NCBI RefSeq assembly: GCF_013170805.1
Contig: NZ_CP051293.1
Coordinates: 3,416,001 to 3,480,000 of the forward strand
Source of the DNA: Mesorhizobium sp. NZP2077
Lineage (GTDB): Bacteria > Pseudomonadota > Alphaproteobacteria > Rhizobiales > Rhizobiaceae
Direction of reading: 5' to 3'
DNA length: 64,000 bases
Shown piece after piece: positions 1 through 7,219 of the stretch. The notes under the pieces were generated by a model, which saw only the letters and a list, made by a program, of their open reading frames with translations, searched no databases and was not told where the DNA came from. The position numbers were made by a program, and so were the translations under genes. The stretch's first letter is position 1. Each line of letters starts with the position of its first letter.

Positions 1-487
1 CTACATGGTCGGCGGCGAGCCGACGAGCGTCTGTTGTCAGGAATGGGAGCCGCCCAATTCCTGGTACCGGCAGGGATCGTCAGCGAGCGCCATCTTCGAT
101 CTCGGCGGCGGCAAGACCTTCACCTATGCCGGCTCCTGGTGCGCCGACGGTTTTCGCACGAGCTGGGAAGGCAGCTGGCGCATTGTCGCCGAGCGCGGCA
201 GCCTCATCTGGGACGGCCATGACGGCCTAAAGGCGGAAGTGATGGCGTCGGGCCGCGATGGCCTGATCGACAAGACCCAGCCGATCGACGTGCCACCCCT
301 CGATCCGGTCGACCGCATCGGTGGCCATCTCGGCATCATCCGGGATTTCATGCACGCCATCGAGACCGGCACCAAGCCGGAGACGCACGGCGCCGACAAC
401 ATCAAGAGCCTGGCCATGGTTTTCGGCGCCATCGAGAGCGCCGAGACCGGACGCCGCGTGGCGATCACTGCACAGGAAGAAAAATGA
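1..487 (+). CDS. Gfo/Idh/MocA-family oxidoreductase, C-terminal part (gene starts upstream of window)
   Basis: About 160 residues of a longer protein whose start lies outside the window; the reading frame is open to the left edge. The visible part matches the C-terminal alpha/beta substrate domain of Gfo/Idh/MocA NAD(P)-dependent sugar dehydrogenases, with the typical ending in which a helix after 'IRDFMHAIETGTKPETHG' precedes a short strand. The family oxidises or isomerises sugars and inositols in the cytoplasm. Its stop overlaps the next start (ATGA), so it is translationally coupled to the isomerase-like gene and probably shares its substrate with the downstream ABC transporter. The exact substrate cannot be read from the sequence. 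Confidence 0.8.
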   Translation, partial: YMVGGEPTSVCCQEWEPPNSWYRQGSSASAIFDLGGGKTFTYAGSWCADGFRTSWEGSWRIVAERGSLIWDGHDGLKAEVMASGRDGLIDKTQPIDVPPLDPVDRIGGHLGIIRDFMHAIETGTKPETHGADNIKSLAMVFGAIESAETGRRVAITAQEEK

Positions 488-4468: not shown

Positions 4469-7219
4469 TCACACCGCCGCGACAAACCCGTCCAGCACGC
4501 GCTTCTGGCCGGCCTTGTCGAAGTCGATGGTCAGCTTGTTGCCTTCGATGGCCGAGATGTTGCCGTTGCCGAATTTCTGGTGGAAGACGCGGTCGCCGAC
4601 GCTGAAGGCGGACGGCGTGTCGGAGACGGATTTGGCGACCAGTTCGCCGTCGATGGTGCGGCCCTTGACCGAGGTGCGGCCGGCGCCATAGCCGCTGTCG
4701 GTCTCGCCATAGCCGATGCGCTCGACCTGGTGGCCGGAGCGCGTGCCCCAGTTGCGGTCGGTCGCTTCGGTGCGGTTGGCCTGCGCGCGCTGCCAGCCCG
4801 GCGTCGAATAGGTGTTGGAGAAGGCGCCGGATCTTTCGCTGTTGGCACCGACATTGTCGAAGCGCGAGGCGCCGTACGGGTTCTGCCGTCCGCCGCCACG
4901 ACCGGACGCGAACGAGCCGCCGCCATATGAATTGCCGTAGCCGCCATAGGAATTGCCGCTTTCGGCGATCTCGACATGGGAGTCCGGCAGTTCCTCGAGA
5001 AAACGCGACGGGATGGTCGATTGCCACAGCCCATGGATGAGGCGGTTGGAGACGAACCAGATATGCAGGTTCTTCTTGGCCCGCGTCAGGCCGACATAGG
5101 CGAGCCGGCGCTCTTCCTCCAGCCCGGAGCGGCCGCCTTCGTCGAGCGCGCGCTGGTGCGGAAACAGGCCTTCCTCCCAGCCCGGGAGAAAAACCGTCTC
5201 GAATTCGAGGCCTTTGGCCGAATGCAGCGTCATGATCGATACGGCATCTTGCCCGGCATTCTGCTCGGCATCCATGACCAGCGCCACATGTTCGAGGAAG
5301 GAGCGCAGCGACTCGTACTCCTCCATCGAGCGGATCAGTTCCTTGAGGTTTTCCAGCCGCCCCGGCGCTTCGGCCGAGCGGTCGTTCTTCCACATGTCGG
5401 TGTAGCCACTCTCCTCGAGAATGGTCTCGGCGAGCTCGGTGTGCGGCTTGGTTTCCAGCGCCTTCTGCCAGCGTTCGAAATTGGCGGCCACTTCGCGCAG
5501 CGCAGCGCGCGGTTTCGGTTTCAACTCGTCGCTTTCGGCGAGGTTGGCGGCCGCCTCCAGCATCGGGATGCGCAGCGCGCGCGCCGTGTCGTGGATCTGG
5601 CGGATGGTGGCTTCGCCCAGTCCACGCTTGGGCACGTTGACGATGCGCTCGAAGGCGAGGTCGTCGCCGCTGTTGGCGACGACGCGGAAGAAGGCCAGCG
5701 CGTCGCGGATTTCCATGCGCTCGTAGAAGCGCGGGCCGCCGATGACGCGGTAGTTGAGGCCGAGCGTGATGAAGCGGTCCTCGAAGGCGCGCATCTGGAA
5801 GGACGCGCGGACAAGGATCGCCATATCGTTGAGGTTATGCTTCTCGCGCTGATAGGCCTCGATGGTCTCGCCGATGGCGCGGGCTTCCTCCTCCGAATCC
5901 CAGGAGGCGTGGACGTTGACCTTGCCGTCCTCCGGCTCGTTGCGGTCAGTGAACAGCGTCTTGCCGAAACGACCCTCATTGTGGGCGATGAGGTGGGAAG
6001 CGGCGCCAAGGATGTGGGCGGTGGAGCGGTAGTTGCGCTCCAGCCTTATGATGGTGGCGCCGGGAAAATCCTTGTCGAAGCGCAGGATGTTGTCGACCTC
6101 GGCACCGCGCCAGCCATAGATGGATTGGTCGTCGTCGCCGACGCAGCAGATATTAACTTTGTTATCGCTCACGGGCTGTTCCGCGCCTGCCGGCGCGGGC
6201 CCTCCGCGCGGGCCTCGCAACGGCTCGGACGCCCGGTCGGGCTTGCGGCCTTCGGCCGGAACTGCCGATTCATCCTTCGGAGTTGCCGGGCTATAATTAC
6301 CCGCCTCCGTTCTATCCGTAACTCCGGAAAAACTTGGAACGCGACCACCCGGAGAGCCACTTCGTGGTGGTTGCGGCCCGCCCGGCCGTTGCGCCAAAAG
6401 GCGTAGCCACATGTACTGGGCGGTGTTGGTGTCCTGGTATTCGTCGACGAGGATGTATTTGAAGCGCCTGTGGTAGTCCTTCAGCACATCCGGATTGGCA
6501 CGGAAGATGCGGATCGGGTGGCAGAGCAGGTCACCGAAATCGCAGGCGTTGAGTGTCTTCAACCGCTCCTGATAGGCCTTGTAGAGTTCGCGGCCCCTGC
6601 CGTTGGCGAAGGCGCGCGCGTCGCCCTCGGCGATATCCGCCGGACCTTGGCCCTTGTTCTTCCAGCCGTCGATCATCTGGGCGAACTGCTTGGCCGGCCA
6701 GCGCTTGTCGTCCAGGCCTTCGGCCTGGATCAACTGCTTGATCAACCTGACGACATCGTCGGTGTCGAGAATGGTGAAGTCGGAGCGCAGGCCGGCGAGT
6801 TCGGCATGGCGGCGCAAAAGCTTCACGCCGATCGAGTGGAAGGTGCCGAGCCAGGGCATGCCTTCGACATTGCCTTCACCGATCAGGATGCCGATGCGCT
6901 GCTTCATCTCGCGCGCCGCCTTGTTGGTGAAGGTGACGGCGAGGATCTGCGACGGGAAGGCCTTGCCGGTGGCAAGGATGTGGGCGATGCGGGTGGTCAA
7001 GACGCGGGTCTTGCCGGTGCCGGCGCCGGCCAGCACCAGAACCGGGCCTTCGGTGGTTTCCACCGCCAGCCGCTGCTCCGGGTTCAACCCCTTGAGATAG
7101 TCGGGCGCATTGTTCTGGCCGCTGCGGGCAGCCATGGCGCGCGCGGCAATGCCCGAGGGGGCCGTGGGCCGCGCATTGGGTTCATCGAAAAAGGGCATGT
7201 CTTCCGAAAAGCCGGACAT
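4469..7219 (-). CDS. uvrD: UvrD/PcrA-type ATP-dependent DNA helicase II with a 73-residue insertion
   Basis: 916-residue superfamily 1A helicase that unwinds DNA 3' to 5' in repair and replication restart. Visible motifs: Walker A AGAGTGKT (64-71), motif Ia TFTNKAAREM, Walker B VDEYQDT (258-264), motif III GDDDQSIYGWRGA (361-373), motif IV around LERNYRS, and motifs V/VI TLHSAKGLEFE and LAYVGLTRAKK. The C-terminal tail is rich in Gly, Ser and Tyr and ends in the UvrD-type small domain (VFHQKFGNG). Between motifs II and III, residues of about 279-351 are a Pro/Gly/Arg/Glu-rich low-complexity segment that the family normally lacks; it is encoded by a palindromic DNA insertion kept in frame. Helicase function is certain at family level; the effect of the insertion is unknown. 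Confidence 0.95.
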   Translation of the reverse strand: MSGFSEDMPFFDEPNARPTAPSGIAARAMAARSGQNNAPDYLKGLNPEQRLAVETTEGPVLVLAGAGTGKTRVLTTRIAHILATGKAFPSQILAVTFTNKAAREMKQRIGILIGEGNVEGMPWLGTFHSIGVKLLRRHAELAGLRSDFTILDTDDVVRLIKQLIQAEGLDDKRWPAKQFAQMIDGWKNKGQGPADIAEGDARAFANGRGRELYKAYQERLKTLNACDFGDLLCHPIRIFRANPDVLKDYHRRFKYILVDEYQDTNTAQYMWLRLLAQRPGGPQPPRSGSPGGRVPSFSGVTDRTEAGNYSPATPKDESAVPAEGRKPDRASEPLRGPRGGPAPAGAEQPVSDNKVNICCVGDDDQSIYGWRGAEVDNILRFDKDFPGATIIRLERNYRSTAHILGAASHLIAHNEGRFGKTLFTDRNEPEDGKVNVHASWDSEEEARAIGETIEAYQREKHNLNDMAILVRASFQMRAFEDRFITLGLNYRVIGGPRFYERMEIRDALAFFRVVANSGDDLAFERIVNVPKRGLGEATIRQIHDTARALRIPMLEAAANLAESDELKPKPRAALREVAANFERWQKALETKPHTELAETILEESGYTDMWKNDRSAEAPGRLENLKELIRSMEEYESLRSFLEHVALVMDAEQNAGQDAVSIMTLHSAKGLEFETVFLPGWEEGLFPHQRALDEGGRSGLEEERRLAYVGLTRAKKNLHIWFVSNRLIHGLWQSTIPSRFLEELPDSHVEIAESGNSYGGYGNSYGGGSFASGRGGGRQNPYGASRFDNVGANSERSGAFSNTYSTPGWQRAQANRTEATDRNWGTRSGHQVERIGYGETDSGYGAGRTSVKGRTIDGELVAKSVSDTPSAFSVGDRVFHQKFGNGNISAIEGNKLTIDFDKAGQKRVLDGFVAAV
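6167..6385 (-). repeat. in-frame palindromic insertion element inside the helicase gene
   Basis: About 219 bases (73 codons) placed between the Walker B motif and motif III of the helicase, where related proteins have only a short linker. The DNA carries several small inverted repeats (for example CGGCCttcGGCCG and CCACttcGTGG), and the translation is low in complexity and rich in P, G, R, E and S. This resembles protein-coding palindromic elements known from Rickettsia and repeats of rhizobial genomes. Boundaries are estimated from protein alignment by eye. No second copy was found in the window. Confidence 0.6.

Follow-up and report, generated by a model that had tools for sequence, protein, structure and literature searches.

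The DNA analysed here, referred to as the window, is a stretch of 64,000 nucleotides from Mesorhizobium sp. NZP2077 (RefSeq assembly GCF_013170805.1, contig NZ_CP051293.1, positions 3,416,001 to 3,480,000 of the forward strand), and it contains a uvrD/pcrA-type DNA helicase gene whose reading frame runs through a long insert containing short inverted repeats. The same site of the gene is filled in nearly all Mesorhizobium genomes surveyed, and the inserts found there are of several distinct kinds, four of which also occur as dispersed palindromic repeats elsewhere in the genomes, some of them in frame in other genes. The likely explanation is that palindromic repeats entered this one site of UvrD in frame and have thereafter behaved as exchanged alleles. 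Our confidence in this reading is good, although it was lowered slightly on account of a weak association between insert type and neighbouring single-nucleotide polymorphisms (SNPs) and of thin sampling in the clade test described below.

The helicase gene and the landmarks that frame its insert are the following.

4469..7219, minus strand: uvrD/pcrA-type helicase gene of 916 amino acids, with a frame unbroken through the insert (open reading frame and profile matches).
6431..6445, minus strand: Walker B or motif II, DEYQD, residues 259-263, the upstream landmark, invariant in an alignment of 43 sequences.
6110..6139, minus strand: motif III, GDDDQSIYGW, residues 361-370, the downstream landmark, invariant in the same alignment.
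6152..6379, minus strand: the whole insert relative to Escherichia coli UvrD, residues 281-356, 76 amino acids against one (alignment to 3lfu; the site is variable in 140 relatives).

The product matches the helicase profiles PF00580, PF13361 and TIGR01073, the last with 766.5 bits, which does not reach the equivalog cut-off of 911.2. In the alignment with E. coli UvrD (3lfu), residue 280 of the query corresponds to chain residue 241 and residue 357 to chain residue 243, and the insert lies between a helix and the strand preceding GDDDQSIYGW. The spacing from DEFQDTN to GDDDQ is 20 residues in E. coli, against 95 from DEYQDTN to GDDDQ in the window gene and 25 in the shortest Mesorhizobium alleles, over which the window insert is 70 residues longer. 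An earlier note on this DNA, made without database searches, had placed about 73 extra residues at 6167-6385, between Walker B and motif III, and this agrees with the alignment to within a few codons. Its further observations of an intact frame and of short inverted repeats in the insert DNA are also borne out: as single-stranded DNA, positions 6167-6390 fold better than dinucleotide shuffles on the sense strand (z -2.34, 2 of 200 shuffles as good) and on the antisense strand (z -3.82, 0 of 200 as good). No domain was found within the insert with NCBIfam and Pfam up to E 1, the NCBIfam matches to that threshold include no palindromic-element model (the library may hold no such model), and an Rfam search of 5800-6700 gave no match up to E 1. 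Two AlphaFold2 models show a helix at about 266-276, then no secondary structure, and a strand from 356; both are poor (mean predicted local distance difference test scores of 49.9 and 52.2), too poor for a surface placement of the insert.

The window insert is a composite of an A-family element (6155-6257) and an upstream part, called E, with these components.

6258..6379, minus strand: left (upstream) half, type E, reading PRSGSPGG...DRTEAG...; E+A is found in 8 of 140 Mesorhizobium inserts.
6357..6370, minus strand: short hairpin in part E, CCAC..GTGG.
6278..6327, minus strand: inverted repeat in part E, CCGGAGTT...AACTCCG, which pairs in the antisense minimum-energy fold.
6155..6257, minus strand: right half, the A-family palindromic element AEGRKPDRASEPLRGPRGGPAPAGAEQPVSDNK.
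6247..6257, minus strand: A module M1, hairpin GGCC-GAA-GGCC.
6231..6242, minus strand: A module M2, hairpin GCCC-GACC-GGGC, both arms of which vary among relatives.
6198..6214, minus strand: A module M3, hairpin GGCCCGCGCGGAGGGCC.
6182..6197, minus strand: A module M4, hairpin CGCGCC-GGCA-GGCGCG.
6155..6174, minus strand: A terminal segment CCGTGAGCGATAACAAAGTT.

In the A half four short hairpins stand in a row ahead of CCGTGAGCG, and the E half has one small hairpin and one longer inverted repeat. Around the GACC loop of module M2 the stems of relatives read GCCC/GGGC, GGAC/GTCC, GTCC/GGAC, GCAGCC/GGCTGC, GCGCGC/GCGCGC and others, and the two arms change in concert, with a paired fraction of 0.657 against 0.488 when the arms are shuffled (highest shuffle 0.556; 36 distinct rows, counted with a loose pattern under which some rows are chance matches). 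When the own genome was searched by BLAST with positions 6150-6400, one significant match beside the query itself was present among the 40 listed up to E 10, an A copy of 53 bp (83%, E 2.2e-8) immediately 3' of the asd stop codon; in the plasmid collection the window insert had no match at E 1e-5. On the own genome by itself the claim of a repeat would be weak, and it is the relatives that decide.

The same-genus set comprised 146 genomes including the own one, all with a match to the gene, from which 142 loci were taken and 140 inserts parsed. The loci omitted were those of G023, G050 and G101, where the listed match begins past the insert or at the edge of a contig, and of G098, which had no listed row; the two not parsed were L137, with two undetermined bases, and L138, whose frame is broken at the insert. 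A long in-frame insert, defined by a spacing of at least 30 residues, is present in 136 of the 140 genes, and the DEYQDTN-GDDDQ spacing ranges from 25 to 112 residues except in L131, where it is 215. By type, the inserts divide into A (67), C (22), B (21, plus 7 partial B), E+A (8) and D (7), the rarer ones being empty-like (4) and D+A, F, G and short (one each); these labels were assigned from patterns, 26 of the 140 rows being set by hand. The site is occupied by at least six distinct kinds of insert, namely the A, B, C, D, F and G types.

The elements measure approximately 103 bp (A), 130 bp (B), 145 bp (C) and 122 bp (D), all with hairpins. The A element is a series of hairpin modules whose peptide usually ends in VSENK, whereas B, which reads PISPLEGEMSGRTEGG...SGDISPSRGEIG, C, which reads SSPLEGEVPAKRAEGV...PPDRASPGHPPLKGEG, and D, which reads TSPSMGEVAPRSGAGGG...DDPPHQGEG, have a common layout. 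Partial B remnants in L109, L104 and L114 resemble deletions, and the insert of L026 consists of D then A, as if two alleles had recombined. A scan of named genomes, in which 80 of 513 loci were kept (76 of the 80 from Mesorhizobium), returned inserts exactly as already in the set for 73 of the 80. Some assemblies look disturbed at the uvrD hairpins: besides the undetermined bases of L137 and the frame break of L138, L131 has runs of 273 C and 40 G, the former probably an assembly fault. Assembly artefact as a general cause of the inserts was considered and rejected, the same kinds recurring over 140 genomes.

The occupied site extends to other genera. From 149 genomes of the family, 68 loci were taken (28 from the search and 40 chosen, hence not a random sample) and 67 parsed; the spacing is at least 30 residues in 51 of them, and several carry B-like or A-like peptides and others none. 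Among the database proteins listed, inserts are present in named Sinorhizobium, Ensifer, Mycoplana and most Ciceribacter proteins, and the UvrD of Shinella, Peteryoungia and Ciceribacter naphthalenivorans is without one.

A, B, C and D are dispersed palindromic repeats. This is evident from five genomes, the own genome (G000) and G116, G104, G038 and G025, which were searched with E cut-offs of 1e-3 for B, C and D and 0.01 for A. In that order of genomes the matches listed number 54, 39, 149, 146 and 146 for B; 25, 5, 16, 32 and 14 for C; 3, 11, 1, 24 and 32 for D; and 2, 2, 1, 6 and 1 for A. These are not exact copy numbers, since palindromes match both strands and the arms of B and C cross-match, and generally the best 40 candidate places per genome were scored. 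Of 56 loci sampled with their flanks, five belong to uvrD, and a sixth (L181) is a chance match of 22 bp within another gene. Eleven more occupy other genes in frame, either inside them or at their end (L152-L154, L156, L173, L183, L184, L187, L188, L192 and L193). No coding frame runs through the copy at 39 of the 51 sampled loci outside uvrD, by a coding score that misses some true cases: only two of the five uvrD positives passed the first filter, which was too strict, and four of five after retraining, and because the copies in pyruvate dehydrogenase E2 still scored low, a low score does not establish that a copy is intergenic. The B family also occurs on plasmids: of 72,556 plasmid records 149 carry it, at 605 places in all, with Sinorhizobium (64) and Rhizobium (46) represented.

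Single A copies lie 3' of asd in G000, G116, G104 and G025, and in G038 three A elements stand in tandem, about 100-110 bp apart, directly 3' of that gene (C1:1025320-1025627; L178-L180). Also in G038, the last residues of a small open reading frame with no Pfam match (L173; ..YPAEGGKPDRAS..RQNP) derive from an A element, which forms an in-frame tail. Repetitive extragenic palindrome (REP) systems are associated with the Y1 transposase RAYT. PF01797, the Y1 or RAYT-type transposase domain, had no match at E <=0.001 in the own genome and in three of the four others, two of which (G104 and G038) have some 150 B matches apiece; two Y1-type transposase matches are present in G025, at C1:6053343-6055931.

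The same elements have been taken up by other genes. The pyruvate dehydrogenase E2 gene of the own genome holds two in-frame C elements (C1:1485784-1485928 and 1486047-1486201; L188/L183 and L396), one in each of the linkers between the lipoyl, E3-binding and catalytic domains. In a sample of 30 E2 genes, which were the best matches from 61 genomes, with linkers called by alignment, a B element forms linker 1 in 16 and a C element in 11, against 3 with native Ala/Pro sequence, and linker 2 is a C element in 12 and native in 18; three rows were relabelled by eye from plain (linker 2 of L398 and L403 to C, linker 1 of L406 to B). The own genome further carries an in-frame C element in a fused oxoprolinase/hydantoinase gene (C1:3357333-3357469; L390/L193), where 54 residues (238-291) stand in place of 11 (235-245) of the solved relative 6yra, and another in xdhC (C1:384812-384919; L392). 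In a fused oxoprolinase of G038 (L391) the C element is situated in the HyuB-like part and not in the HyuA-like part. The XdhC genes L392 and L386 (the latter from G116) have repeat-derived insertions between two XdhC domains, SPLEGGEE... followed by SAKRPE....

The frame in which the elements are read is largely constant. The C peptide was found, at E up to 0.01, in 10 places in three of the five genomes (none in G104 or G025), nine of them on the coding strand of E2, oxoprolinase, XdhC or uvrD genes and the tenth on the opposite strand of one of these. The B peptide has 330 places in the five genomes, and its best matches outside uvrD, among those inspected, are in E2. Within the uvrD inserts, 95 of 100 TCCCCC-GGGGGA arms read SPxxGE and the other five retain the GE part. 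The use of a single frame across several genes suggests that the peptide is under selection, or else that the element is built for this reading.

The link between insert type and the gene around it is weak. On a gene tree of 140 tips made without the insert, the 13 labels need 56 changes, where the least possible is 12 and shuffled labels average 68.6 (0 of 200 as low). As a control, changes were counted at ordinary biallelic sites of similar frequency. Type A changes 31 times against a control mean of 18.1 (3 of 72 control sites with as many or more) and type C 19 times against 11.0 (5 of 57); the excess is clear for these two and weak for B, D and E. Finer tests were made with 121 rows, after 16 outlying and 3 short rows had been dropped. 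Values of r2 between insert and SNPs are mostly 0.001-0.024 (0.008 expected), compared with 0.053-0.069 between SNPs beyond 24 nt, and mutual information gives nothing significant-looking at +1..30 (p 0.105), +1..60 (p 0.060) or -150..-90 (p 0.240; 200 permutations in all such tests). The ratio of same-type to different-type divergence by distance from the insert is 0.80-1.12, and 0.88 in the 15 nt adjoining it upstream, figures to be read only alongside the SNP and tree controls.

Stronger than the tree counts, and direct evidence for the movement of alleles, are pairs of proteins with identical flanks. These were sought among pairs with equally long flanks drawn from the 120 best-matching database proteins, amino acids rather than nucleotides being compared. 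P0058 (D) and P0068 (empty) have no amino-acid difference outside the insert; neither have P0054 and P0085, whose A half is common to both and whose preceding half is E-like in one and D in the other (script labels A and D). Differing inserts are also found under one species name: A and empty in M. huakuii and in M. erdmanii, C and B in M. opportunistum (815 of 825 residues identical), E+A and C in M. caraganae, and A and E+A in M. kowhaii.

The phylogeny of the elements themselves is consistent with this. Eight uvrD D alleles from scattered species, one of them the D+A composite, form one clade (Shimodaira-Hasegawa-like approximate likelihood ratio test 96) apart from the nine genomic D copies sampled, which points to their exchange as alleles; likewise, a group of 22 uvrD C alleles, joined by one 95-bp fragment from XdhC of G116, is set off from five C copies that lie in E2 and oxoprolinase genes. 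Against the copies sampled, the D alleles make up a single clade and the C alleles nearly so. Synonymous divergence is lower in the insert than in its own upstream flank for D (0.105 against 0.290), C (0.152 against 0.318) and B (0.201 against 0.324). Excess divergence along the gene, taken over 143 close pairs in 77 windows (mean 1.02, sd 0.26), peaks in the two 54-nt windows that border the insert, at 1.65 and 1.74. We read the excess beside the insert as a mark of short-tract exchange; indel-linked mutation could explain it as well.

The course of events that we favour is as follows. Palindromic repeat DNA would have entered UvrD in frame, at a single permissive turn between helix and strand; in the short form of the protein about 20 residues lie between DEYQDTN and GDDDQ. 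Several kinds of hairpin repeat (A, B, C, D and rarer ones) would each have entered the site, every one translated into a peptide rich in Pro, Gly, Arg, Glu and Ser that is probably disordered and may be tolerated rather than beneficial. After these founding insertions the spread inside uvrD looks like allele exchange and not transposition, the insert presumably acting as an allele that passes between species by short-tract homologous recombination with little flanking DNA. B and C copies appear likewise to have been adopted as linkers of pyruvate dehydrogenase E2, and C copies in other enzymes.

A number of results weigh against this explanation. The gene tree is a quick one, with 48 of 137 inner branches open, and on its starred branches fewer changes are required (A 21, C 13, B 12, D 5). 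Much of the discordance is common to ordinary biallelic sites of the gene, and three types come close to their controls: B with 20 changes against a mean of 13.7 (20 of 72 sites with as many or more), D with 8 against 6.5 (19 of 73) and E with 7 against 6.3 (23 of 59). Association with the flanks is not wholly lacking, since type A reaches an r2 of 0.074 with the two nearest SNPs and mutual information detects a weak association in the upstream 60 nt (p 0.000) and 30 nt (p 0.005) and, downstream, at +90..150 (p 0.005) and +300..360 (p 0.030). The clade test covered families D and C with few outside copies (9 and 6), those for D coming, of the D-bearing genomes, from G025 only. There is no synonymous deficit in A (0.317 against 0.325) or E+A (0.356 against 0.318), and the ratio of nonsynonymous to synonymous divergence (dN/dS) within inserts is 0.27-0.56, below 1 (flank 0.09-0.11), which leaves room for constraint at the level of protein or stem and fits a constraint from either source that is relaxed but not absent. 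The excess divergence near the insert is about alike in same-type and different-type pairs (1.35 and 1.38 at 4-30 nt, pairs below 6%; 0.85 and 1.03 within 60 nt in non-overlapping nearest pairs). Part E matches the rest of the own genome at chance level in the BLAST search, with no significant second copy. No target-site duplication was read by eye, a reading made without a systematic scan and with borders of filled and empty alleles that differ too much, and no mobilising enzyme was found and no transposase tied to the elements.

Recurrent fresh insertion and loss at a true target hotspot, with donors from the genomic pool and without exchange of alleles, would account for the nearest pair with different inserts, L022 (C) and L075 (A), which have only 2 differences in 294 flanking nt, for empty alleles adjoining filled ones on the gene tree and for the deletion-like partial B remnants. 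It is nonetheless unlikely: under it neither the single clade of D alleles from eight species, apart from nine genomic copies and nearly matched by C, nor the similar borders and spacers kept within an insert type would be expected, and the D-then-A insert of L026 is what recombination between two alleles should give. Ectopic gene conversion, in which a resident palindrome is overwritten by repeat copies of the same genome, could draw on many possible B donors per genome, and is in keeping with the layout and reading frame common to B, C and D and with the piece of the G116 XdhC gene that falls among the uvrD alleles in the C tree. However, the D clade excludes all nine sampled genomic copies, the C alleles stand apart from five of six, and A and B differ throughout, which would make their interconversion by homology hardly possible; we hold this explanation to be very unlikely.

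The inserts might instead form a functional diversifying loop, for instance a surface met by phage or by a partner protein, whose polymorphism is kept across species by selection. That several species have insert types in common, that A and E+A have diverged at synonymous sites as deeply as their flanks, that dN/dS is below 1 and that empty alleles are rare (4 of 140) would all agree with maintained diversity, but among the listed inserts no amino-acid signature is common to all types, half-size and deleted forms occur and the same peptides serve as E2 linkers, and selection of this kind seems decidedly unlikely. Least of all can the segment be an ordinary disordered loop of a GC-rich gene with palindromes as a by-product of codon bias, a reading to which low complexity and the few copies of the A family lend some colour and which is contradicted by dispersed copies of the same sequences outside uvrD, by distinct families at one site and by the concerted changes of the M2 stem; it is extremely improbable. 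The earlier note would have settled for an ordinary loop if all close relatives had the same segment and no other copies existed, and the relatives' inserts in fact differ and their families are repeats. Its proposal of a mobile repeat family of Mesorhizobium stands as regards an origin from repeats and residence in coding genes; there are several families and not one, they are not confined to Mesorhizobium, and their spread within uvrD resembles allele exchange. As for copies of the segment across the genome, the A half has its one significant copy and the E half none.

Beyond the explanation by in-frame entry and allele exchange, a wider and more doubtful proposal can be put forward tentatively. 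The palindromic repeats of rhizobia may constitute a shared stock of linker cassettes, of which B, C and D, read in one frame as SPxxGE, have replaced linkers of core enzymes such as E2; the hairpins in UvrD might provoke breakage and repair, the swapping of cassettes might outpace the evolution of the gene, and uvrD would then be a natural locus of cassette exchange.

These inserts are of interest in several respects. In the literature covered, protein-coding palindromes are best described from Rickettsia, and here they are found in common free-living bacteria. With one site followed across about 140 Mesorhizobium species and further genera, empty, partial, composite and full alleles can be compared, and such alleles make testable the entry of repeats into genes, their cost or benefit to the protein, local recombination driven by hairpins and the passage of intergenic DNA into protein linkers. 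At a practical level, strains that bear one species name differ in their insert, which could distort trees and the clustering of proteins.

Several known systems invite comparison. Small non-autonomous repeats fused in frame to host open reading frames are described among miniature inverted-repeat transposable elements (MITEs) such as ERIC, Correia and Yersinia repeats (PMC2229807); in the rhizobial elements no terminal repeats with target duplications were established, and the families recur in loops and linkers across many species. Rhizobium-specific intergenic mosaic elements (RIMEs; PMC2573895) are annotated repeats of rhizobia, where B-family DNA is also widespread, and these elements are described as intergenic. 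REPs with GTAG or CGTC tags are described in DNA-repair genes, a UvrD/REP helicase among them, and differing REPs occur at about the same recB site in Xanthomonas campestris and X. oryzae, which is the nearest precedent for the hotspot that was found; the same account describes CGTC repeats as missing in Bartonellaceae and Brucellaceae (PMC3733652). Those tagged repeats are of 20-40 bp, shorter than the approximately 103-145 bp of the rhizobial elements, and the main text of that study (2013) leaves Mesorhizobium unnamed, its account of intragenic REPs describing no many-species hotspot or allele exchange. As to the RAYT that accompanies REPs, the own genome and three of the four others have none by the search given above, and G025 has two matches. 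A search of open-access papers listed none that describes a hotspot for palindromic repeats in the uvrD or E2 genes of rhizobia.

The closest likeness is with the Rickettsia palindromic elements (RPEs), hairpin-forming repeats of about 100-150 bp that are described between genes and in frame in unrelated conserved genes (PMC2229807, PMC10969869, PMC3733652). The rhizobial elements, palindromic and of about 103-145 bp, have the same size, and they too occur in frame in unrelated genes (uvrD, E2, oxoprolinase and XdhC) as well as outside genes, to judge from the 39 of 51 sampled copies without a coding frame. The resemblance to protein-coding palindromes of Rickettsia, already suggested in the earlier note, therefore holds for the mode of action, short palindromic repeats both outside genes and in frame within unrelated ones; it is a likeness in mode. 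What appears to be new with respect to the Rickettsia type is that a single rhizobial uvrD site holds several families, over a genus and further genera, and that its inserts seem to be exchanged between species as alleles.

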